Of a stretch of DNA of 61,831 nt, positions 1-10,346 are shown piece after piece (within the stretch, counting starts at the first letter, position 1; every line of letters starts with the position of its first letter). This stretch comes from Pseudoroseomonas ludipueritiae (GTDB taxonomy: Bacteria; Pseudomonadota; Alphaproteobacteria; Acetobacterales; Acetobacteraceae), in assembly GCF_014490445.1 (NCBI RefSeq), contig NZ_JACTUZ010000012.1, forward strand, positions 1 through 61,831. Reading direction: 5' to 3'. The notes under the pieces were generated by a model that had not been told where the DNA came from, did no database searches, and worked only from the letters and a program-made list of their open reading frames with translations. Made by a program: the position numbers and the translations under genes.

Positions 1-361
1 CCAGCAGCGCCTGGGCCACGGCCTCAGCCTGGGTGGCACCCGCCCCGGCGGGCAGATGCGCGGCGACGGGCCGCCGGTCCTCCGGCCGCAGCAGCAGCGT
101 GCCGGGGGAGCGCGCCATCTGGCCCACCAGCGCGGCGTCATAGACATGGTCGGCGCGCAGCAGCAGGGCGGCGCTTTCGCCCGCCCCGGCCACCGGCACC
201 TTGGCGCGGGTCAGCGCACGGCGCAGCAGCTCGGAGGAAGGCATGCTCCAGACCGGCACCGGCCCCTCGCCCAGCAGCCGTGCCGCCACTGGCGCGGGGG
301 CATTCGCCGCCGGTGCGGCAGCCGCTATGGTCGCCCCCTTATGTCCCTGGTCCTGGCCCAT
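1..361 (-). CDS. CDP-alcohol phosphatidyltransferase family protein, N-terminus only (probable)
   Basis: An open frame of 120 codons starts at an ATG at 361 and runs off the left edge, so the catalytic part is not visible. A weak GGAG lies about ten bases before the ATG. After an Ala/Pro-rich start the protein reads VPVWSMPSSELLRRAL, then LLLRADHVYDAALV and GTLLLRPEDRRPVAAHL. This resembles the N-terminal segment before the membrane transferase domain in alphaproteobacterial CDP-alcohol phosphatidyltransferases. The diagnostic DG-x2-AR motif would lie beyond the edge and cannot be checked. It is divergent from the phosphoesterase gene and overlaps its start by 21 bases. Two nucleotidyltransferases 5-7 kb away fit a role in moving an activated alcohol onto a lipid. 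The family call is tentative; the reading frame itself is better supported. Confidence 0.45.
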   Translation of the reverse strand, partial: MGQDQGHKGATIAAAAPAANAPAPVAARLLGEGPVPVWSMPSSELLRRALTRAKVPVAGAGESAALLLRADHVYDAALVGQMARSPGTLLLRPEDRRPVAAHLPAGAGATQAEAVAQALL

Positions 362-1264
362 CTTTCCGATCTCCACCTGCCACCCGAGGCTGGGCCGACC
401 CTTCGGCAGCTCTTTGGCAAGCGCTTGCTGTCCTACCTTGCGTGGCAACGCAAGCGCCGCCGCCGCACCGAACTGCCTTTGCCCCGCCTGCTGGAGGATC
501 TGGCCGCCTTCGCGCCGGAAGCGATCGCCGTCACCGGCGACCTGACGCATTTCGCCCTGCCGGACGAGTTCCGCGCCGGGCGCGCCTTCCTGCAACGGCT
601 GGGGCCGCCGGGCAAGGTGCTGGCCATTCCCGGCAACCACGACGCGCTGGTGCCGGTGCCCTGGGCGGCGGGGCTGGGCCATTGGGCCGAGTGGATGCGC
701 GGCGACACCGCCGGCTTCGAGGGTTTCCCCTTCCTGCGCCGCATCGGCGATGCGGCCATCATCGGCCTCTCCACCGCCGTGCCGACCATGCCGGGCCTCG
801 CCTCCGGCCGGCTGGGGCGGGAGCAGGTGGACCGGCTCGGCTCATTGCTGGCGGAGGCGGGGCGCCAGGGCCTGTGCCGCGTGGTGCTGATCCACCACCC
901 GCCGCTGGGCGAGAACCGCCGGCGCGGGTTGCAGGACCGGGCGGCGCTGTTGCAGGTGCTTGCCCAACATGGGGCGGAGATGCTGCTGCATGGCCATAGC
1001 CACCGCCCCGCCCTGCTGCCGGTGGCGGGCCCGGCCGGGCAGGTGCTGCCGAGCATCGGGGTGCCCCAGGCCCTGGCGGGGGCGGGGCACCGTCATCTCT
1101 CGCGCTGGCACCTCTACCGCCTCGGCCGGGAAGGCGGCGCCTGGGTGCTGGAAACCCTGGTGCGCGGCTACGACCCGGCGGCGGGCCGCTTCCGCAGCCT
1201 GGGCGAATGGCGCCTGAGGCTCGGCGGCGCGGTGGGGGAGGCGGCGGTCAGTATCGCAGCCTGA
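341..1264 (+). CDS. Calcineurin-like metallophosphoesterase
   Basis: A 307-residue cytoplasmic enzyme with the full set of calcineurin-type metal motifs: D10-x-H12 (SDLHLP), GD at 66-67 (GDLTH), GNHD at 98-101, a His pair in LIHHPP near 188 and GHSH near 222. Family members hydrolyse phosphomonoesters or cyclic nucleotides at a two-metal centre; the substrate cannot be told here. The start at 341 places DLH at the usual distance from the N-terminus, although the frame stays open upstream and no good ribosome site is seen. It overlaps the divergent transferase gene at its 5' end and the convergent DUF2141 gene by 17 bases at its 3' end. In this lipid-gene setting a phosphatase for a lipid or head-group phosphate is possible but unproven. 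Confidence 0.85.
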   Translation: MSLVLAHLSDLHLPPEAGPTLRQLFGKRLLSYLAWQRKRRRRTELPLPRLLEDLAAFAPEAIAVTGDLTHFALPDEFRAGRAFLQRLGPPGKVLAIPGNHDALVPVPWAAGLGHWAEWMRGDTAGFEGFPFLRRIGDAAIIGLSTAVPTMPGLASGRLGREQVDRLGSLLAEAGRQGLCRVVLIHHPPLGENRRRGLQDRAALLQVLAQHGAEMLLHGHSHRPALLPVAGPAGQVLPSIGVPQALAGAGHRHLSRWHLYRLGREGGAWVLETLVRGYDPAAGRFRSLGEWRLRLGGAVGEAAVSIAA

Positions 1265-1709
1265 TCGGTACACGGCCTCCCTCCGGCCCCACCTGGAAGC
1301 GCACGGAGTCGAAGCTCGGCAGGCCGATCACCGTCGGCGCGTCGTTGGAGAAGCCATAGCCTTCCGCCGGCATGCCCAGCAGCGTGCGGTTGAAATCATG
1401 GTCGTCATTCTCGTCGTGATAGACCGCGACCGCGTAGATGCCGGGGGTGGAGACGGCGAAGCAGGCCTCCGCCTGGGTGCTGTGCAGCGGCACGCGCTGC
1501 CGGGCCAGCTTGCCGGTGCGGGCCAGGAAGGCATCGGGCCGGCTGCCATAGAGCGTGATCGTCATGTTGCCCGCGACCTTGCGCGCGCCGCTGACCACCA
1601 CCTCGATGCGCGGCCCATTCGGCGCGCCGGGGGCGCCGCAAATCCCCGCCACCTGTTCCGCGGCGCTGACGGATGCCAGTGGCGCCAGGGCCAGCATGGC
1701 GAGCAGCAC
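1248..1709 (-). CDS. DUF2141 family secreted protein
   Basis: The protein carries the conserved DUF2141 block: ITLYGSRPDAFL, YAVAVYHDENDDHDF, then GMPAEGYGFSND and a C-terminal beta-rich segment. Family members are small exported beta-sandwich proteins of unknown function. A hydrophobic export signal ending near SVSAAE is visible. The start is uncertain. GTG at 1709 is given, but the residues encoded just upstream (LRRLRRGWP) look like the basic head of a signal peptide, so translation may begin further upstream, possibly overlapping the divergent HIT gene; ATG at 1697 is a third option. The 3' end overlaps the convergent phosphoesterase gene. Nothing in it indicates a specific link with the lipid genes. 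Confidence 0.75.
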   Translation of the reverse strand: MLLAMLALAPLASVSAAEQVAGICGAPGAPNGPRIEVVVSGARKVAGNMTITLYGSRPDAFLARTGKLARQRVPLHSTQAEACFAVSTPGIYAVAVYHDENDDHDFNRTLLGMPAEGYGFSNDAPTVIGLPSFDSVRFQVGPEGGRVPIRLRY

Positions 1710-1818
1710 AGGCCAGCCACGTCTCAGCCGCCGCAGCCGCCCCTCGTCCTCGGCGGCGTGAGGGACTATGTTGAGCCCCGGAAACGCCCTTCGTCCCCTC
1801 TGTTTTTTGAGACGCGGA

Positions 1819-2262
1819 ATGCCAAGTGCGACACTGAACAAGTTCGGGTATCCCATGACGCTGGTGGGGGAGACGAAGCACTGGGCGGTGCTGGTGCGCC
1901 CGGAGCAGCCGACGCTCGGCAGCCTGGTCATGATCTGCCGCGAGCCTGTTACAGCCTTCGGCGAGGTCAGCCCGGCCGCCTTTGCCGAGATGGGCGGCGT
2001 GGTGGCGCGGATCGAGGCCCTGCTGCGGGATTTCATCGGCTACGCCAAGATCAACTACCTCATGCTGATGATGGTGGACCCCGATGTCCATTTCCACGTC
2101 ATCCCCCGCTATGAGGGCAGCCGTGAGCATAACGGCCTCTCGGTGCCGGATGCCGGCTGGCCCGGCCCCCCGGCGCTTGGCACGGCCGTGAAGCCGGATG
2201 AGGCGGCGCTGAAGGATCTGGTCGCCACGCTGCGCGCGCGCTGGGCCGGCCTGCCAGCCTGA
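1819..2262 (+). CDS. HIT family protein (Ap4A-hydrolase-like)
   Basis: A 147-residue histidine-triad family protein. The start at 1819 gives MPSATLNKFGYP, a typical beginning for alphaproteobacterial HIT proteins that continue LGSLVMICRE and end near PDAGWPG. The active-site strand reads NYLMLMMVDPDVHFHVIPRY. Two His of the H-x-H-x-H motif are present, but the third position is Pro-flanked rather than His, so this belongs to a variant group. HIT proteins hydrolyse or transfer nucleotides at an alpha-phosphate, which fits dinucleoside polyphosphate turnover. The stop TGA overlaps the start of lptF as TGATG, so the two are probably translationally coupled. An ATG at 1768 would add 17 residues that the family lacks. 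Confidence 0.85.
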   Translation: MPSATLNKFGYPMTLVGETKHWAVLVRPEQPTLGSLVMICREPVTAFGEVSPAAFAEMGGVVARIEALLRDFIGYAKINYLMLMMVDPDVHFHVIPRYEGSREHNGLSVPDAGWPGPPALGTAVKPDEAALKDLVATLRARWAGLPA

Positions 2263-3560
2263 TGGACACGGCCCCCGCCACGCTGGAGGCACGGCCGCGC
2301 GCCACCAGGGGCGCCGGCAGTCCGCTGGTGACGCGCTATCTGCTGCGCCTGCTGGGGCGGCCGCTGGTGGCGACCCTGCTGGTGGTGCTGCCGGCCCTGC
2401 TGCTGGAGCGGCTGCTGCGGCTCTTCGACCTTGTCGCCACCAGTGCCGGCGCGGTGGGGCCGGTGATCCAGCTGGTGCTCTTCCTGGTGCCGCATTACAT
2501 CGGCCTGGCGCTGCCGGCGGCCTTCTTTGTCAGCGTCTTCACCGTTATCACCCAGTTGAGCGAAAATCATGAGCTGGATGCCCTGCAAGGCACCGGCATG
2601 TCGCTCTCGCGGCTGGCGCGGCCCCTCCTGGCGGTGGGCGTGGCGCTGGCGCTGCTGGGGTTGTTGCTGCATGGCTATATGCAGCCGCTCGGCCGCTACA
2701 ACTACCGCGCCGCCTTCAATGCCGTGACCCATGCCGGCTGGAACGCCAAGGTGGGCGCGGGGGACTTCATCCGCCTCGGCAGCCGCCTGACCGTCACGGC
2801 TGATTCCGTGGATGCCATGACCGGCCAGCTCACCGGCGTTTTCATCGAGCAGCGGCGGACCGATGGCACCGAGGTCACCACCACCGCCCGGCGCGGCTGG
2901 CTGGTGCGCCAGCCCGATGAAGGCACGCTGGTGCTGCAACTGGAAGGCGGCTCGCAGATCGAGGTTTCGCCCGAGGGCGAGGTGAATACCCTGCGCTTCG
3001 GGGATTCCTCCGTCACCCGCCCCTTCAGCCTCTCCATCCCGCCCTTCCGGGCCCGCGGCGACGACGAACGCGAGATGACGCTGGACGAGCTTTGGAAAGC
3101 CACGTCCGGCCCGCCGCCCACCTCGACCGGCGGCGGCGGCCCGATCCCGCACAGCCGCCTGGTGGGCGAGCTGCATGGCCGGCTGGTGCGCTCCTTCTCC
3201 TTCGCGCTGCTGCCGCTGCTGGCGGTGCCGATGGGCCTGGGCGCCAAGCGCACGCGGCGCTGGCAGGGCGTGGCGCTCTCGGCGCTGATCCTGGTGATCT
3301 ACCACCATGGCGTGCAGCTGGCGGAATCGCTGGGCGATATCGGGCTGATCGACCCGCGCCCGGCGCTCTGGGGCCTTTTCGCCGGCTTCGCCATCCTCTC
3401 GGCGCTGGCCTTCCGCCATGCCAACCGCAATCCCTACGAAGGCCCCTTCGACGCGGTGCTGGAGCGGTTGGAGGGCGTGACCGCCGCCATCGGCGCCCGC
3501 CTGCCGCGCCGCCGCCGCCGTGCCGCCGCCGAGGCCTCTTCCGAGGCCGCGCAGCCATGA
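2262..3560 (+). CDS. lptF: LptF/LptG-family permease, first of pair
   Basis: A 432-residue inner-membrane permease of the YjgP/YjgQ family. Three N-terminal membrane segments lie at about residues 30-60, 65-95 and 110-140. A periplasmic beta-jellyroll domain follows (about 150-290), then three C-terminal membrane segments (about 305-395). The conserved LSENHELDALQGTGMS cytoplasmic stretch of the family is clear. In LPS export, LptF and LptG form the permease of the LptB2FG extractor that passes lipid through the jellyroll to LptC/A. There is an extra 20-residue head and a basic RRRRR tail of about 30 residues. It is coupled to lptG by an ATGA overlap. Its place beside ceramide-type genes leaves open a dedicated role in sphingolipid rather than LPS transport. 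Confidence 0.9.
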   Translation: MDTAPATLEARPRATRGAGSPLVTRYLLRLLGRPLVATLLVVLPALLLERLLRLFDLVATSAGAVGPVIQLVLFLVPHYIGLALPAAFFVSVFTVITQLSENHELDALQGTGMSLSRLARPLLAVGVALALLGLLLHGYMQPLGRYNYRAAFNAVTHAGWNAKVGAGDFIRLGSRLTVTADSVDAMTGQLTGVFIEQRRTDGTEVTTTARRGWLVRQPDEGTLVLQLEGGSQIEVSPEGEVNTLRFGDSSVTRPFSLSIPPFRARGDDEREMTLDELWKATSGPPPTSTGGGGPIPHSRLVGELHGRLVRSFSFALLPLLAVPMGLGAKRTRRWQGVALSALILVIYHHGVQLAESLGDIGLIDPRPALWGLFAGFAILSALAFRHANRNPYEGPFDAVLERLEGVTAAIGARLPRRRRRAAAEASSEAAQP

Positions 3561-4621
3561 TCCGCCGCCGCTACCTGTCGCGGCTGTTCCTGGGGCGGCT
3601 GCTGGCGGCGCTGCTCGGGCTGGCGGCGCTGATCCAGTTGCTGGACCTGTTGGACCGCGCCAGCGAGGTGCTGCACCGCGGCGGGCTGCTGGACCTCGCG
3701 CGCTATGCCGGGCTGCGGCTGCCCAGCGTGCTAGGGCAGATGGTGCCGCTGGCGGTGCTGATCGCCGGCATGCTGACGCTGCGCCGGCTGGCCATGACGC
3801 TGGAGATGACGGCCCTGCGCGCCGCCGGCATCCCCGTGCGGCGCGTGCTGGTGATGCTGCTGCCCGCCTGTGCCATGGCGGCGGTGGCGCAGGCGCTGCT
3901 GCTGGGCATCGTGGCCCCGCGCACGGAACGTGCCCTGGCCGCCTGGTGGGCCCGCACCGAAAGCCGTGCCCTGGTGCCGGACAAGAAGCCGCAGCGGGTG
4001 TGGCTGCGGGCTGGCTCGCAGATCATCGGCATCGACCGTGTGTCGCTGGATGGCACGCAGTTGCAGGGCGTGCTGCTGGTGCCCCGCAGTGCCGATGCCC
4101 TGGCCCTGGCCCGCATCGAGGCGGGCAGCGCCGAGCATACCTCCGCCGGCTGGACCCTGCGTGACGTGCGCGTGGCGGAGCCCAGCGGCGCCGTGCTGGC
4201 GCGGCAGGCGCTGCGCCCCTGGCCCGAGGGCCCGCCACCGGCCGAGATCCTGGACGTGGCACGGCCGACCGAGGCACAGGACCCCTGGTGGCTGCTGCGT
4301 GCCCTGCGGCGGGAAAAGGCGGTGGACCGTGGGCCCGCCTTCTACCAAACCCGCCTGCATACCATGGCGGCGCGGCTGCTGGGCCCCTTCGTGATGCTGC
4401 TGCTGGCCGCCGCCGTGGCCTTCGATGTACCGCGACGGGGTGGTGGCATGGCGCGGCCGCTGCTGGCGCTCTGCCTGGGGCTTGGCTTCATGCTGCTCGG
4501 CGGCCTGCTGGGCGCGCTGGGTGAGGCCGGGGTCATACCCGCCGCCCTGGCTGTCTGGACCGCGCCGATCCTTTTCGCCGCGATCGGCGGCAGCCTGCTG
4601 ATCCGCTTCGAGGAACAATGA
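3557..4621 (+). CDS. lptG: LptF/LptG-family permease, second of pair
   Basis: A 354-residue partner permease with the same layout as LptF: membrane segments at about 10-35, 50-75 and 95-125, a periplasmic domain at about 130-260, and three segments from about 270 to the end. The cytoplasmic LAMTLEMTALRAAGIP stretch matches the family coupling-helix region. The ATG overlaps the lptF stop, and its own TGA overlaps the ATG of the next gene, so lptF, lptG and the acyltransferase read as one coupled unit. Neither the LptB ATPase nor LptC/LptA is in the window. The lptF/lptG order is the common one; assignment as G rather than a second F rests on that order. Confidence 0.88.
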   Translation: MIRRRYLSRLFLGRLLAALLGLAALIQLLDLLDRASEVLHRGGLLDLARYAGLRLPSVLGQMVPLAVLIAGMLTLRRLAMTLEMTALRAAGIPVRRVLVMLLPACAMAAVAQALLLGIVAPRTERALAAWWARTESRALVPDKKPQRVWLRAGSQIIGIDRVSLDGTQLQGVLLVPRSADALALARIEAGSAEHTSAGWTLRDVRVAEPSGAVLARQALRPWPEGPPPAEILDVARPTEAQDPWWLLRALRREKAVDRGPAFYQTRLHTMAARLLGPFVMLLLAAAVAFDVPRRGGGMARPLLALCLGLGFMLLGGLLGALGEAGVIPAALAVWTAPILFAAIGGSLLIRFEEQ

Positions 4622-5778
4622 TGACCGAGCACAGCCGGGCGGCGGTGGAGATCGTCCCGGTCTCCGGCGCCGCCGCCATGGAGCGTTTCATCCGCCTGCC
4701 GGAGCAGTTGCTGCGTGGCGACCCGAACTTCGTGCCGCCGCTGCGGATGGAGCGGCGCCTGGCCTTCTCCACGCGCAAGAACCCCTATTTCCGCCATGCC
4801 GAGGCCGCCTTCTGGCTGGCGCGGCGCGGCGGGCGGGTGGTCGGGCGCGTCAGCGCGCAGCAGGACCGGCTTTCCCCGCCCATGGCGGATGGCAGCCCCG
4901 CCGGCCATTTCGGCCTGCTGCTGGCCGAGGACGACGCGGATGTCCACGCCGCCCTGCTGCGCGCCGCCGAGGGCTGGTGCGCCGCGCGTGGGGTGAAGCG
5001 CATCACCGGCCCCTTCAGCCTGTCCATCAACGAGGAAAGCGGGCTGCTGGTGGCGGGCCACGACACGCCACCCATGCTGATGATGCCGCATGACCCGCCC
5101 CATACCGCCCGGCAACTGGAGGCGCTGGGCTACCGGCGGGAGAAGGACCTGCTGGCCTACCGGGTGGAAACCGCCGCGCCGCCTTCCGCCGCCGCCGCGC
5201 AACTGGTTGGGCGCGGCCTGCCGCCGGGCGTGGTGCTGCGGCCCATCCGCATGGGCGAGATGCGGCAGGAGGTCGCGCGGCTGGTGGGCATCTTCAACGA
5301 TGCCTGGGCCGACAACTGGGGCTTCGTGCCCATCACCCAGGACGAGGTGGACACCATGGCCACCGCCCTGAAGCCGCTGCTGCGGGAGAAGCTGGTCTGG
5401 TTCGCGGAAGTGGAGGGGGAGGCGGTGGCCTTCGCCGTCTGCCTGCCCAATCTGAACGAGGCGATCCGTGACCTGGGCGGCAAGCTGCTGCCGCTAGGCT
5501 GGGCCAGGCTGCTCTGGCGGCTGAGGGGCCAGCGCATCCACACCGCACGGGTGCCGCTGATGGGGGTGAAGCGCAGCCTGGCCAAGGGCATGCTGGGCCG
5601 GGTGCTGCCCTTGTTCATCGTGGATGCGCTGCGGCGGGAGGCACGGGCGCAGGGCATCCGCACCATCGAGATGTCCTGGGTGCTGGAGGATAACCTGCCG
5701 ATGCGCCGCCTGGCCGAGGCTGTGGGAGGCGAGGCGTACAAGACCTATCGCGTCTTCGGCAAGGACCTGGCGGCGTGA
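4618..5778 (+). CDS. YghO/bacterial ceramide synthase-like N-acyltransferase
   Basis: A 386-residue protein of the GNAT-related family that includes E. coli YghO and the bacterial ceramide synthase of Caulobacter. Family signatures seen are LLRGDPNFVPPL (about 31-42), KNPYFRHAEAAFWLAR then VVGRVSAQ (about 58-82), ITGPFSLSINEESGLLVAGHD (about 129-148), and a C-terminal GNAT half ending in EMSWVLEDNLPMRRLAEAVGG. The bacterial ceramide synthase joins a fatty acyl group to the amine of 3-ketosphinganine. It is tied by 4-base overlaps to lptG before it and the nucleotidyltransferase after it. A fatty-acyl-AMP ligase and an epimerase-type reductase follow within 4 kb. The family placement is good; ceramide synthesis as the actual reaction is inferred from this context. 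Confidence 0.72.
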   Translation: MMTEHSRAAVEIVPVSGAAAMERFIRLPEQLLRGDPNFVPPLRMERRLAFSTRKNPYFRHAEAAFWLARRGGRVVGRVSAQQDRLSPPMADGSPAGHFGLLLAEDDADVHAALLRAAEGWCAARGVKRITGPFSLSINEESGLLVAGHDTPPMLMMPHDPPHTARQLEALGYRREKDLLAYRVETAAPPSAAAAQLVGRGLPPGVVLRPIRMGEMRQEVARLVGIFNDAWADNWGFVPITQDEVDTMATALKPLLREKLVWFAEVEGEAVAFAVCLPNLNEAIRDLGGKLLPLGWARLLWRLRGQRIHTARVPLMGVKRSLAKGMLGRVLPLFIVDALRREARAQGIRTIEMSWVLEDNLPMRRLAEAVGGEAYKTYRVFGKDLAA

Positions 5779-6542
5779 GCGGCGCCACCGCCCTGGTGCT
5801 GGCCGGCAGCCGTGCCGGCGCGGCGGACCCGATGGCCGTGGCCGCCGGCGTCTCCCACAAGGCGCTGCTGCCGGTGGCTGGCGTGCCGATGCTGGCACGG
5901 GTGCTGGAAGCCTTGCGGGACAGCCCCCGCATCGCTCGCATCGTGGTGATGATCGAGGCGCCGGAGCGCAGCCTGGCGGGCTTTCCGCTGGAGCCCGATG
6001 TGCTGCTGCGCCCGGCGCAGCCCTCGCCCAGCCTAAGCGTGGCGGCGGCGCTGGAGGAATTCGGCGCGCCGCTGCTGGTCACCACCGCCGATCATGCGCT
6101 TCTGACGCCCGCCATGGTGGCGGAGTTCATGGCCGACCTGCCGCCGGGTGTGGACGCGGCGGCGGGGCTGGCGCGGTCGGAGGTGGTGCTGGCCGCCTGG
6201 CCGGGTACGCGCCGCACCTGGCTGCGCTTCCGCGGCGGGCGCTTCAGCGGCTGCAACCTGTTCTGGATGGGCACGCCGCGCGCCGCTGGGGTGGTGGAGT
6301 TCTGGCGGCGGGTGGAGCAGCAGCGCAAGAAGCCGCTGGCCATGGTGCGGATGCTGGGTCCCTGGGTGCTGCTGCGCTTCGCACTGGGCCTGCTCAGCCT
6401 GCCGCAGGCCCTGGCCGCGCTGGGGGCCCGCACCGGCACGCGGCTGGGAGTGGTGCAGATGCGCTTTGCCGAGGCCGCCGTGGATGTGGACAAGCCCGCC
6501 GACCTGGAACTGGCCGAAGCCGTCCTGGCGCGGCGGGGCTGA
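5775..6542 (+). CDS. MobA-like NTP transferase domain protein
   Basis: A 255-residue nucleotidyltransferase-fold protein starting at GTG in a GTGA overlap with the acyltransferase. The N-terminal LVLAGSRAG replaces the usual G-x-G-T-R loop, HKALLPVAGVPML follows at about 30-42, and TTADHALL near 100 carries the metal-binding Asp. The C-terminal half (SGCNLFWMGTP to VDKPADLELAEAVL) is typical of the NTP_transf_3 group. Such enzymes activate sugar or alcohol phosphates with an NTP. Genes of this type accompany bacterial sphingolipid loci, so a head-group activating step is plausible, but the substrate is not readable from sequence. It converges on the next gene with a 9-base gap. Confidence 0.75.
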   Translation: MSGATALVLAGSRAGAADPMAVAAGVSHKALLPVAGVPMLARVLEALRDSPRIARIVVMIEAPERSLAGFPLEPDVLLRPAQPSPSLSVAAALEEFGAPLLVTTADHALLTPAMVAEFMADLPPGVDAAAGLARSEVVLAAWPGTRRTWLRFRGGRFSGCNLFWMGTPRAAGVVEFWRRVEQQRKKPLAMVRMLGPWVLLRFALGLLSLPQALAALGARTGTRLGVVQMRFAEAAVDVDKPADLELAEAVLARRG

Positions 6543-6551
6543 GGGCAGGGG

Positions 6552-7325
6552 CTATTCGGCCGCCGCCGGTGCGAGGCCGGCCTGGCGCCAGCGCTGGCCC
6601 AGCAGCTCCGCCCGCATCACATCGGCCGGGAAGTCGATCTCGCCCCAGGAGAGGCCCTCGATGGAGGCGACGCGGACCTCGGTCTTGGCCGCAAGGGCGT
6701 CGATGACGGAAAGGTACCAGCGCTTCAGCCCCTCCGGCTGGCGCATCACCGCCTCCACCCCCGCTGTGAACTGGGTGCCGCCTTCCCCACGGAACAGCAG
6801 CATGCCGATCGACTCGCCATGGGTGCGCTCCGGCGGCAGGGTCTTGCCGATGGCGCGCAGGCGCGTGCCTTCCAGCGAGACCTTCATGTCGTCGTCGTCG
6901 TAATGCGGCTTGCGGTCGATGGTGACGGTGATGGGCACCTGGGGCGCCTGCAACAGCCGGGTCAGGATGGCGGGCTCGAAGAGCGTGTCGCCATTCAGCA
7001 GCACGCAGCCATCCTCGCGGCTGCCGCTTTCCAGCACGTCGCGGGCGAGGAAGCAGCTACCGATATTGTCGGCCACGGCGAAGAAGGGATTGAACCGCGC
7101 CCTTACCCTGGCGGCGAAGCTCCCGAGTCCCGCCAGCATCTCATCCACCCGCCCGGCCCCGAATCCGGTCACAACCGTGACATCGGTGATGCCATTGGCG
7201 GCCAGGCCCCGGAGCTGCCATTCCAGCACGGGCATGCCGGCCACGGGCAGGAGGCACTTGGGGCGGGTCTCGGTCAGGGGCATGAGGCGCCGGCCCTGGC
7301 CGGCACAGAGAATAACAGCACGCAA
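6552..7325 (-). CDS. Sugar/phosphocholine cytidylyltransferase-like nucleotidyltransferase
   Basis: A nucleotidyltransferase of 257 residues when started at TTG 7325, where the family N-terminus LRAVILCAGQGRRLMPLT begins and a GAGGA lies ten bases upstream. An ATG at 7472 would add 49 low-complexity residues not expected in the family. Visible motifs are the G-x-G-x-R loop, RPKCLLPVAGMPVLEWQL, LLNGDTLF near residue 105 with the metal Asp, and EIDFPADVMRAE near the C-terminus. Relatives transfer CMP or UMP to phosphocholine, inositol phosphate or sugar phosphates. With the CDP-alcohol phosphatidyltransferase fragment at the left edge, a CDP-alcohol donor for a lipid head group is a reasonable guess. 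It is on the strand opposite its neighbours. Confidence 0.78.
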   Translation of the reverse strand: MRAVILCAGQGRRLMPLTETRPKCLLPVAGMPVLEWQLRGLAANGITDVTVVTGFGAGRVDEMLAGLGSFAARVRARFNPFFAVADNIGSCFLARDVLESGSREDGCVLLNGDTLFEPAILTRLLQAPQVPITVTIDRKPHYDDDDMKVSLEGTRLRAIGKTLPPERTHGESIGMLLFRGEGGTQFTAGVEAVMRQPEGLKRWYLSVIDALAAKTEVRVASIEGLSWGEIDFPADVMRAELLGQRWRQAGLAPAAAE

Positions 7326-7610
7326 GATATTCTGGTCCTCGTCGGCCGGGGCTGCGGCACCGCCGCGGAGCCCGGGGCCTGAGCTCCGGGTCAAGGGGGC
7401 AAGGCTAGCATCGGACCCGCTCTTACGCCACGGCAGGGCAGCTCTGCATCCGCCATTGTCATCCAACCGCAAGATTGACGCGGTGGAAGCGAGTCTCTAG
7501 GCAGGCGTGGCGAACTCCCGATCGTGGAGCCGCCTCTATGCCCGCCGGAGCTCTAGGCGGGCTGTATTCGTTTCCGGCCAGGCCGGACATCAGGGCGGAG
7601 ATAGCTCTAC
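7326..7610. other. Intergenic region between divergent nucleotidyltransferase and acyl-AMP ligase genes
   Basis: About 285 bases without a convincing gene. It must hold promoters for both divergent genes. A TTGACG at 7475-7480 followed after 17 bases by TAGGCA is a weak candidate for the ligase promoter; the -10 is poor. GGCGGAG lies 15 bases before the ligase ATG. Short open frames here have no family features. Confidence 0.4.
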
Positions 7611-9353
7611 ATGCCGCTTCCGATCCCGACCTTGAGCGGCCTTCCGCTGCGCCGGGGTGAGTTCGATTCGCTGCCACAGGCCCTGGATTACGCTGCCGGC
7701 GGGGCCACCGGGCTGGCTTTCCATTCCATCCGTGGCGGCCATGTCGCCAGCCTTCCTTACCGCGAGTTACGGCAGGACGCCCTGGACCTGGCGGGGCGGA
7801 TGCTCGGCGCCGGCCTGCGGCGTGGGGAGCGGGTGGCCATGCTGGCGGATACCTCTCCTGATTTCGTGCGCGCCTTCTTCGCCGCGCAGTATGCCGGGCT
7901 GGTGCCGGCGCCGCTGCCGCTTCCGCCGCCCTTCGGCGGGCGTGATGCCTATGTGGGGCAGATCGACCGGCTGCTGCGCGAGTCGCGGGCCGCGGCCCTC
8001 TTCACCCCCGCCGAGATCCTGCCCTGGCTTTCCCCGGTGGCGGAGCGGCTCGGCCTGAAGCTGTTTGGCACGGTGGAGCAGATGCGCGGCGTGCAGCCCG
8101 GTGCCGAGGCGCCGGTGCCGAGCGGGCCGGAAGACATCGCCTATCTCCAGTTCTCCTCCGGCAGCACGCGCCATCCGGCGGGTGTGGCGGTGCGGCAGCG
8201 GGCGGTGATGGCCAATACCTCGGGCATCATGCAGCACGGGCTGAAGATGCGCCTGGGCGACCGCACCACCTCCTGGCTGCCCTTCTACCATGACATGGGG
8301 CTTGTCGGCTTCCTGCTGACCCCGGTGGCTGGCCAGCTCTCGATCGACCTGATGCCGACGGCGGATTTCGCCCGCCGGCCGATGATGTGGCTGTCGATCC
8401 TTTCCGAGTACAAGGGCACGCTCTCCTTCAGCCCCTCCTTCGGCTACGAGCTTTGCGTGCGCCGCCGGGCCGCCGTGCCGGAAGGGCTGGACCTGTCTTC
8501 CTGGCGCGGCGCGGGCCTGGGTGGCGACATGATCCGCCCGCATGTGCTGGCCAGCTTCGTGGAAACCTTCGCCCCGCATGGCTTCCGGGCCGAGGCGCTG
8601 GTGCCCAGCTACGGCATGGCCGAGGCGACGCTGGCCATCTCCTTCGCCGAGCTGGACCGTGGCATCCGGACCGATGAGATCGACCTGACCCGGCTGGAAA
8701 CCGATGGCCGCGCTGAGCCCGCCACCGAGGCCACAGAGCGCCGCCGCCAGTTCGTCGCCTGCGGCGCCGTTCTGCCGGAGCACGAGCTGGATATTCGTGA
8801 CGCCGAGGGCCACAGCCTGCCGGACCGGCAGGTGGGCAGCATTCTGGTGCGCGGCCCCTCGATCATGCTGGGCTATGATGGCCAGCCGGAGCGCACGGCC
8901 GAGGTGCTTTCGCCCGATGGCTGGCTGAACACCGGCGACCTGGGCTACCGCCTGGATGGCGAGGTGGTGATCACCGGCCGCGCCAAGGACGTGATCCTGG
9001 TCAATGGCCGCAATATCTGGCCGCAGGACCTTGAGTGGTCGGTGGAGCAGGCGGTGCAGGGCCTGCGCACCGGCGACGTGGCCGCCTTCTCGGTCGATGA
9101 GGAAGGCGAGGAAACCGTGGTGGTGCTGGTGGAAGCCCGTGGCGCCCCGGACCCCACGGCGCGGGAGCGGCTGATCGCCGATGTCGGTGGCGTGCTGCGT
9201 TCCCGCCATGGGCTGGAAAGCCGGGTGGTGCTGGTGCCGCCGGGTGGGCTGGTGCAGACCTCCTCCGGCAAGCTGAGCCGGGCATGGACGCGCCGGAAGT
9301 ACCTCGAAGGCGCCTACGGCCCGGTCGCGAGCGCGAATTCGGAAGCCGCCTGA
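7611..9353 (+). CDS. Fatty-acyl-AMP ligase (AMP-binding enzyme)
   Basis: A 580-residue adenylate-forming enzyme. Core motifs are LQFSSGSTRHPAGVAV (P-loop-like A3, about 180-195), WLPFYHDMGLVG (about 225-236), PSYGMAEATLA (A5, about 330-340), WLNTGDLGY (A7, about 438-446), GRAKDVILVNGRNIWP (A8, about 455-470) and TSSGKLSR (A10, near 553). The FYHDMGLVGF block and SSGSTRHP are characteristic of fatty-acyl-AMP ligases that load an acyl carrier protein rather than CoA. In Caulobacter ceramide synthesis an acyl-ACP synthetase of this kind neighbours the reductase CerR. Here the reductase-like gene follows after 3 bases. No acyl carrier protein gene is seen in the window. Confidence 0.88.
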   Translation: MPLPIPTLSGLPLRRGEFDSLPQALDYAAGGATGLAFHSIRGGHVASLPYRELRQDALDLAGRMLGAGLRRGERVAMLADTSPDFVRAFFAAQYAGLVPAPLPLPPPFGGRDAYVGQIDRLLRESRAAALFTPAEILPWLSPVAERLGLKLFGTVEQMRGVQPGAEAPVPSGPEDIAYLQFSSGSTRHPAGVAVRQRAVMANTSGIMQHGLKMRLGDRTTSWLPFYHDMGLVGFLLTPVAGQLSIDLMPTADFARRPMMWLSILSEYKGTLSFSPSFGYELCVRRRAAVPEGLDLSSWRGAGLGGDMIRPHVLASFVETFAPHGFRAEALVPSYGMAEATLAISFAELDRGIRTDEIDLTRLETDGRAEPATEATERRRQFVACGAVLPEHELDIRDAEGHSLPDRQVGSILVRGPSIMLGYDGQPERTAEVLSPDGWLNTGDLGYRLDGEVVITGRAKDVILVNGRNIWPQDLEWSVEQAVQGLRTGDVAAFSVDEEGEETVVVLVEARGAPDPTARERLIADVGGVLRSRHGLESRVVLVPPGGLVQTSSGKLSRAWTRRKYLEGAYGPVASANSEAA

Positions 9354-9356
9354 CGC

Positions 9357-10346
9357 ATGGGGCTGGTGGCCGTCACCGGCGGCACCGGCTTCGTTGGCCG
9401 TTATGCCGTCGCGGCGCTGGCGCGGGCCGGGTGGTCGGTGCGCATGCTGGTGCGGCGGGACCCGGTGCACCCGCTTCTGCGGGACGTGGTGCCGGAACTG
9501 GTGCTGGGCGACCTTGAGGAAGAGGCCGCGCTGGCCCGGCTGGTGCGCGGCGCCGACGCCGTGGTGCATATCGCCGGCCTGACCAAGGCGCCCGACCTCG
9601 ATGGCTTCCTGCGCGTCAACCGCGACGGCACCGCCCGCATCGCCGCCGCCGTGGCGCGTGAAGCGCCGGGAGCGCGGCGGCTGCTGGTCTCATCCCTCGC
9701 GGCGCGGGAGCCGACCCTGTCGCATTACGCCGCCAGCAAGCGGGCAGGGGAAGAAGCGGCACGCGCCGCGCCGGGCGGCGAGGGCTGGACCATCCTGCGC
9801 CCCGGCGTGGTCTATGGCCCGGGCGACGAGGAAGGGAAGGCGCTGCGTGGCCTGGCCACCGCGCCGCTGGCCGCCATGCCGGGCCCGCCGGAGCCGCGCA
9901 TCGCCATGATCCATGCCGCCGATGTGGCGGAAGCCATTGCCGCTTTCTGCGGCGCCGGCATGGCAGGCGGGCTCCACGAACTCTGCGATGCACGCCCTGA
10001 TGGCTATGGCTTCGCCGAGGTGCTGGCCATCACCGCCGCCGCCCTGGGCCGCAGGCCGCCGCGCATGCTGCGGCTGCCGGATGCCGTTTTCCTCGGCGCC
10101 GGCGCGGCGGCGGATCTCTGGGCCGGCCTCAGCGGCCGGCGAGGCATCTTCGGCCGTGGCAAGGCGCGCGAGTTGCTGCACCGCGACTGGAGCGCCAACC
10201 GCGCCCTGCTGCCGCCCGCCACGCTCTGGGCGCCGCAGATCCCACTGGCACGGGGCATGGAAGGCGTGGCGAAATGGTGGGCGAATGGCTCCGCCGAGGT
10301 CACGCTTGCTGGCGCGCATCTACCCGGAGTCGATAATTCGGACTAG
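9357..10346 (+). CDS. NAD-dependent epimerase/reductase (CerR-like)
   Basis: A 329-residue extended short-chain dehydrogenase. The Rossmann motif GGTGFVG is at residues 8-14, VVHIAG near 65, SSLAAREP near 118 and the catalytic Y-A-A-S-K near 126-130; ILRPGVVYGPGD follows near 145. It begins 3 bases after the acyl-AMP ligase and is certainly co-transcribed with it. In the bacterial ceramide route a member of this family (CerR) reduces the 3-oxo group after N-acylation, giving dihydroceramide. Many epimerase-family proteins act on sugars, so the assignment depends on the neighbours: acyl-AMP ligase, YghO-like acyltransferase and lipid permeases. Confidence 0.75.
   Translation: MGLVAVTGGTGFVGRYAVAALARAGWSVRMLVRRDPVHPLLRDVVPELVLGDLEEEAALARLVRGADAVVHIAGLTKAPDLDGFLRVNRDGTARIAAAVAREAPGARRLLVSSLAAREPTLSHYAASKRAGEEAARAAPGGEGWTILRPGVVYGPGDEEGKALRGLATAPLAAMPGPPEPRIAMIHAADVAEAIAAFCGAGMAGGLHELCDARPDGYGFAEVLAITAAALGRRPPRMLRLPDAVFLGAGAAADLWAGLSGRRGIFGRGKARELLHRDWSANRALLPPATLWAPQIPLARGMEGVAKWWANGSAEVTLAGAHLPGVDNSD

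Follow-up and report, generated by a model that had tools for sequence, protein, structure and literature searches.

A gap-interrupted gene cluster in Pseudoroseomonas ludipueritiae that very probably directs synthesis and export of a phosphoglycerate-type sphingolipid

The left end of contig NZ_JACTUZ010000012.1 of Pseudoroseomonas ludipueritiae carries, in positions 1-10346, a set of genes that very probably forms the right-hand part of a cluster of about 16 genes, interrupted by a gap in the assembly. The cluster very probably serves the synthesis and export of a phosphoglycerate-type sphingolipid (CPG or CPG2, the latter being ceramide diphosphoglycerate), a charged lipid known from Caulobacter. 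The stretch analysed, hereafter the window, comprises positions 1-61,831, and its position 1 is the first base of the contig. A preliminary description had read the locus as ceramide synthesis and export without its first enzyme; all of the gene families it named are present at their places, and the interval holds two further genes that it did not name, of the HIT and DUF2141 families.

Four genes of the interval are assigned to ceramide formation, fatty acid activation and head-group transfer by comparison with Caulobacter crescentus (CC_ numbers), for which Caulobacter segnis sequence stood in. The ceramide synthase gene of the YghO/bCerS type (cerS, CC_1154; 4618-5778, plus strand) encodes a GNAT-type acyltransferase, which scores 28.0 bits over the whole protein (cut-off 20.7) with no individual stretch above the cut-off, and is 42% identical to YghO of E. 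coli BL21(DE3) and 49% to its C. segnis counterpart. A fatty acyl-AMP ligase/acyl-ACP synthetase (aasR, CC_1165; 7611-9353, plus) reaches 781 bits with PRK09192 of NCBIfam (cut-off 600) and is 42% identical to the E. coli BL21(DE3) enzyme; it is followed by a candidate ceramide reductase (cerR, CC_1164; 9357-10346, plus), an NDUFA9-like, NAD-binding short-chain dehydrogenase/reductase with 47% identity to C. segnis and 35% to E. coli BL21(DE3). At the very edge, on the minus strand (~1-358, start codon not settled), lies the N-terminal fragment of a CDP-alcohol phosphatidyltransferase (cpgA, CC_1159), the remainder of which falls in the gap. The fragment alone finds no family in Pfam or NCBIfam profile searches, and is 96% identical over 109 amino acids to the beginning of a protein of P. 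wenyumeiae bearing the CDP-OH_P_transf domain, so that the transferase suspected here earlier is indeed present, as an N-terminal fragment only.

Between these genes lie a calcineurin-like phosphoesterase in the position of CC_1158 (341-1264, plus; PF00149, 42.4 bits, cut-off 21.5), an accessory DUF2141 protein whose start is not settled (1248-1763, minus; PF09912, 92.7 bits), the HIT-family gene (1819-2262, plus; 20.5 bits in Pfam, below the cut-off of 21.5), and second copies of LptF-like and LptG-like permeases (lptF2, CC_1156, 2262-3560, plus, PF03739 at 194.7 bits; lptG2, CC_1155, 3557-4621, plus, 201.3 bits with the frame tested from 3554; cut-off 27.9 for both). Beyond cerS follow a MobA/CofC-like nucleotidyltransferase (NTP1, CC_1153; 5775-6542, plus; PF12804, 51.8 bits), 46% identical to the C. 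segnis gene at the same place, and on the minus strand a phosphoglycerate cytidylyltransferase-like protein (NTP2 or cpgD, CC_1152; 6552-7472), 49% identical to that of C. segnis. In three of four relatives the match to the latter starts at its residues 39-48, and its real start is therefore probably nearer 7340. In the run headed by the HIT gene (HIT-lptF2-lptG2-cerS-NTP1) neighbouring genes overlap by 1-4 bases, and aasR is separated from cerR by 3 bases; together with an order that is kept in relatives, this puts the grouping beyond chance.

Serine palmitoyltransferase (SPT) is not in the window, as would be expected of an incomplete, non-functional pathway truly lacking it. A genome-wide search for class I/II aminotransferases, however, gave 20 matches, one of which, on contig C75 (9,623 bases), is an SPT: its best PDB match is 2x8u, a solved serine palmitoyltransferase (E 1.7e-121), with chains not named SPT at 4.6e-64 or weaker. 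On C75 a MYG1-like gene (4036-4974, plus) is the upstream neighbour of a flippase-like gene (5101-6513, plus; Polysacc_synt, 24.2 bits; 33% identity to the E. coli BL21(DE3) counterpart), which is followed by an acyl carrier protein gene (ACP, acpR; 6543-6824, plus; PP-binding, 43.6 bits), by spt (6827-8041, plus), by a cpgC homologue (8045-~9010, minus) and by the C-terminal part of a kinase, the ceramide-kinase or cpgB homologue (9004-9621, minus), which runs off the contig end. As in rhodobacterial ceramide operons, acpR directly precedes spt on the same strand. Both are stop-free open frames, with 99% (SPT) and 96% (ACP) identity to P. wenyumeiae.

The cluster is unbroken in P. wenyumeiae and in two other genomes of the genus (G001, G008), with cerS and spt 7.3-7.4 kb apart on one contig; P. 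wenyumeiae and G001 keep a common order of 17 query proteins (the 16 of the cluster plus an aldolase), and G008 keeps that of the 16 cluster genes. A 1,601-base stretch of P. wenyumeiae matches window bases 1-170 at one end and C75 bases 9350-9619 at the other, and its intervening 1,161 bases (query 171-1331) give only short, chance-like matches elsewhere in this assembly. The gap-spanning part encodes the rest of the CDP-alcohol transferase and the start of the DAGK-type kinase, and cpgA and cpgB are long open frames in all three relatives, with domains checked in P. wenyumeiae. Since the stretch bridges both ends, the left end of the window and the right end of C75 almost certainly border a single gap. 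The missing first enzyme of the preliminary description is thus an artefact of assembly, and its suggestion that SPT and a dedicated ACP might be found beyond the left edge of the window is, on the present evidence, correct. With both genes found in the same genome, we reject a pathway without SPT, a reading to which we give practically no weight.

The likeness to Caulobacter extends through most of the cluster. In C. segnis the order is cpgD, NTP1, cerS, lptG2, lptF2, HIT, DUF2141, phosphoesterase, cpgA, cpgB, cpgC, spt, cerR, aasR, flippase, and from spt to cpgD both order and strands are identical to those in P. ludipueritiae, where in contrast the aasR-cerR pair has been relocated to the far end, beyond cpgD. 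The 348-base gap between spt and cerR in C. segnis gave no ACP match. The CPG2 cluster of C. crescentus, CC_1168-CC_1152, is described in PMC11324152, which assigns CC_1165-CC_1162 and CC_1154 to ceramide synthesis and CC_1161-CC_1158, CC_1153 and CC_1152 to CPG2 formation, and proposes export through LptC2, LptF2, LptG2 and a flippase. P. ludipueritiae has counterparts of CC_1166, CC_1165-CC_1158 and CC_1156-CC_1152, and probably of CC_1157 (the HIT gene); it differs in having no detected second LptC and in the MYG1-type gene upstream of its flippase gene. Judged by family and position, all eleven genes named for CPG2 in C. crescentus have counterparts, two of them fragmentary, and the locus is a fresh instance of the Caulobacter CPG2-type cluster and not a new system. 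In C. segnis the flippase gene is followed by two others, one for a fatty acid hydroxylase and one that has no Pfam match (L143:18522-20506), a position occupied in C. crescentus by CC_1167 and LptC2 (PMC11324152).

For a wider comparison, a CDP-alcohol transferase scan of named genomes gave 262 stretches, of which 183 were confirmed and the best 80 analysed. These 80 loci were selected by cpgA and cover up to 10 kb on either side; many are close kin and many end at contig edges, so that absence of a gene is not proof. They contain cpgC in 76, HIT in 72, lptF2 and lptG2 in 70 each, cerS, phosphoesterase and cpgB in 67 each, NTP1 in 66, NTP2/cpgD in 55, spt and cerR in 54 each, acpR in 51, aasR in 50, the flippase in 39 and DUF2141 in 36. 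A locus for ceramide only, or for a plain glycosylated sphingolipid, with the remaining genes as unrelated neighbours, would resemble E. coli BL21(DE3) and genome G033, where ceramide genes and LptFG occur with no cpgA, cpgB or cpgC match in the 35 kb and 20 kb covered. The E. coli yghO-spt cluster (PMC9386255) shares cerS, aasR, cerR, acpR, spt, a flippase-like gene and an annotated, weakly similar LptFG pair with P. ludipueritiae, and its 35 kb differ in lacking phosphoesterase and HIT matches as well. We regard such a reading as very improbable here, for in many of the 80 loci, which span Alphaproteobacteria, Burkholderiales and Nevskiaceae, cpgA-B-C, the phosphoesterase and both nucleotidyltransferases accompany the ceramide and lptFG genes. 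An additional gene resembling cpgA is inserted between lptG2 and cerS in several clusters, from Burkholderiales, Nevskiaceae and others (e.g. L087, L088, L100, L110, L112, L171, L172), which points to head-group variants.

The assignment of CerS was supported by a tree of 45 rows (35 of the 67 available cluster loci), in which the window protein groups with the cluster-linked CerS, including that of C. segnis, and with YghO, apart from a second CerS-like lineage (support 100/100), with the placement of the long-branched rows G017, YghO, L139 and G033 uncertain. A single broad CerS clade was rejected, as the second lineage follows an alpha-oxoamine synthase and, in both loci that were scanned, is preceded by a polyketide synthase. 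A PDB sequence search with CerS gave three weak P450 matches only. In the reductase tree (35 rows; 24 of the 53 available loci) the window protein sits with its counterparts and all 29 CerR rows fall on one side of the genome's six other reductases, but the split from those reductases is weak (59/63) and the assignment rests on gene order. The GxxGxxG and YxxSK motifs agree with it; PDB matches of the protein include several complex I NDUFA9-type chains, and Caulobacter CerR is likewise described as NDUFA9-like (PMC11087976). Taken with the presence of SPT, these results support the earlier reading of ceramide synthesis and export, which had missed the fuller phosphoglycerate head-group cluster.

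An alternative reading concerns the head group. CpgC finds no convincing Pfam family and no PDB sequence match; it appears nucleotidyltransferase-like from a GS...D-x-Y motif, its predicted model (pLDDT 91.8) and a remark on an InterPro domain in PMC11324152. Alignments took in 50 of 75 copies of CpgC and 26 of 80 of CpgA. A ceramide-based phosphosphingolipid with a non-glycerate head group, for instance another CDP-activated alcohol, would be compatible with identities to C. segnis proteins that are moderate throughout (31-57%) and with the reactions of CC_1161, CC_1159, CC_1158 and CC_1153 still being undefined in 2024 (PMC11324152). What makes us consider it unlikely is CpgD, in which cytidine triphosphate (CTP)- and glycerate-handling residues have been named (PMC12275187, PMC13228409): the window protein and that of C. 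segnis agree at Gly12, Arg16, Lys26, Asn90, Asn110, Gly111, Asp112 and Trp201. These are the positions that could be placed; the numbers are those of C. crescentus, transferred by matching the pattern of letters in C. segnis, which required a shift of one residue from one part of the protein to another. Ser170 was matched by eye only, at the ESIG motif.

A phosphoglycerate-type product is thus the reading we favour, with several points weighing against it. The identities just given leave room for different head-group chemistry, cpgA and cpgB are known in this genome from end fragments only with the remainder taken from relatives, the flippase-like protein falls short of its Pfam cut-off (28.2 bits), CerR separates from the other reductases with the low support noted above, and no second LptC of the CC_1168 type was found, PF06835 giving one match in the whole genome. 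C. crescentus is reported to have LptC2; a CC_1168 orthologue is also reported missing in N. eutropha, A. vinelandii and P. luteola (PMC11324152), so a second LptC is not essential to membership of this cluster type.

Presence, order, orthology and the CpgD active-site residues are established here for P. ludipueritiae, and reactions and product are modelled on Caulobacter. AasR would load a free fatty acid onto AcpR, and SPT would condense the AcpR-borne acyl chain with serine to 3-oxo-sphinganine, which CerS would N-acylate in the cytoplasm to an oxidised ceramide for reduction by CerR to dihydroceramide. CpgB would then phosphorylate the ceramide, the nucleotidyltransferase-like CpgC and others would take part in adding the first phosphoglycerate, CpgD would make CDP-glycerate, and the CDP-alcohol transferase CpgA, the CC_1153-type nucleotidyltransferase and the phosphoesterase would take part in adding the second. 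The order of events across the membrane looks unsettled, since CerR is placed in the periplasm (PMC11087976) whereas a ceramide kinase would presumably depend on ATP from the cytoplasm. Transport of the lipid through and out of the inner membrane would fall to the flippase-like protein and LptF2G2, perhaps sharing the general Lpt machinery, as no second LptC was found. Of the four LptF/LptG genes in the genome, the two in this cluster have NCBIfam scores below the cut-offs (LptF 206 bits against an equivalog cut-off of 230, LptG 197.5 against 240). The other pair, on contig C339, scores higher, and we reject the window pair as the ordinary lipopolysaccharide (LPS) transporter.

The comparison also highlights one conserved gene not discussed by that name in the pathway papers searched: 'HIT family' and 'histidine triad' have no occurrence in the main texts, supplements aside, of PMC11324152, PMC12275187, PMC10331486, PMC13228409, PMC9386255 and PMC11087976. 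In all 69 of the 80 loci that have both genes, HIT lies upstream of lptF2 on the same strand, the matched segments being at most 155 bases apart in 67 and 317 and 502 bases apart in the other two; one of the 70 lptF2 loci lacks HIT (Magnetospirillum aberrantis), and seven loci have HIT without the phosphoesterase. The window protein matches 2oik by profile (E 6.6e-9) and has a predicted model of pLDDT 95.3. For the alignment 71 of the 80 loci passed coverage and 48 were aligned with the window copy, row L098 being excluded for a stop codon; 43 of the 49 members match PF01230 (HIT) at E <=0.01. The HIT family is characterised by a three-histidine motif, H-x-H-x-H, which is not kept in the cluster family, where the consensus is D-V-H-F-H with two histidines invariant in the 49 rows.

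A further sample of 190 Alphaproteobacteria, drawn evenly, contained cpgC in 21 genomes, 13 with cpgA (12 by search, and P. ludipueritiae, whose cpgA is split by the gap, by hand) and 8 without. HIT was present in 9 of the 13 and in none of the 8 (Fisher one-sided p 0.0024); the figures are 9/12 against 0/6 by genus (p 0.0045) and 8/12 against 0/8 with the P. ludipueritiae genome excluded (p 0.0039), none of the three values being corrected for shared ancestry. The HIT gene thus tracks cpgA, and not cpgC alone. It was rejected as an obligatory part, as four of the 13 cpgA genomes have no HIT match and five of the 169 cpgC-less genomes have one; in four of these five that were inspected (L167-L170; 10.8-20 kb each) no other cluster gene lies near it.

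By position and distribution, CC_1157 is probably the Caulobacter counterpart. Against a role in the pathway, PMC11324152 considers CC_1157, between CC_1158 and CC_1156, probably unrelated and reports that its mutants do not share high cofitness with the cluster. It also records the joint absence of CC_1159 and CC_1157 from Zymomonas, and postulates a partial substitute for the CC_1158 phosphoesterase. The HIT protein may nonetheless be an unrecognised working part of CPG2 formation, acting with CpgA on CDP-activated intermediates by nucleotide hydrolysis or transfer and possibly standing in partly for the phosphoesterase; by the same reading, the sphingolipids of Roseomonas mucosa would be anionic phosphoglycerate ceramides. 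The cofitness report lowered our estimate of this proposal from a serious possibility to a tentative and rather doubtful one.

These comparisons place the CPG2-type cluster in Pseudoroseomonas, Roseomonas and relatives, with a patchy distribution: cluster-type CerS and SPT occur together in 5 of 17 genomes of the genus, P. ludipueritiae included. R. mucosa ATCC BAA-692 (L073) carries most of the cluster, which suggests that its sphingolipids are phosphoglycerate ceramides; the 21 kb covered contain no aasR, cerR or cpgD. No text joining 'Roseomonas' and 'ceramide phosphoglycerate' was found in the literature searched. In Caulobacter, viability without LPS is reported to depend partly on CPG2 (PMC12275187), which is also the presumptive polymyxin target (PMC11324152); given these roles, the cluster allows a prediction of outer-membrane chemistry in a group to which the skin bacterium R. 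mucosa belongs. R. mucosa has been tested on skin in atopic dermatitis, and a review holds that its sphingolipid production may have contributed to the effect (PMC10456496).

A second, distant pair, of an alpha-oxoamine synthase (~34% identity) and a CerS-like protein (~33-39%), was seen in 5 of 38 genomes (G009:C43, G008:C1, G021:C20 and G003:C5, corresponding to L059-L062, and G013:C3). In the two loci scanned it stands behind a polyketide synthase and resembles the polyketide synthase-dependent SgaAB sphingolipid clusters (PMC12134224) with a CerS-like gene added behind it. The SgaAB clusters share an alpha-oxoamine synthase with the present system, which in relatives is followed by a CerS-like gene, and differ in that the chain comes from a polyketide synthase. 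Such a system was not seen in the P. ludipueritiae genome, which gave one CerS match only, the synthase itself not having been searched for. G008 has both systems.

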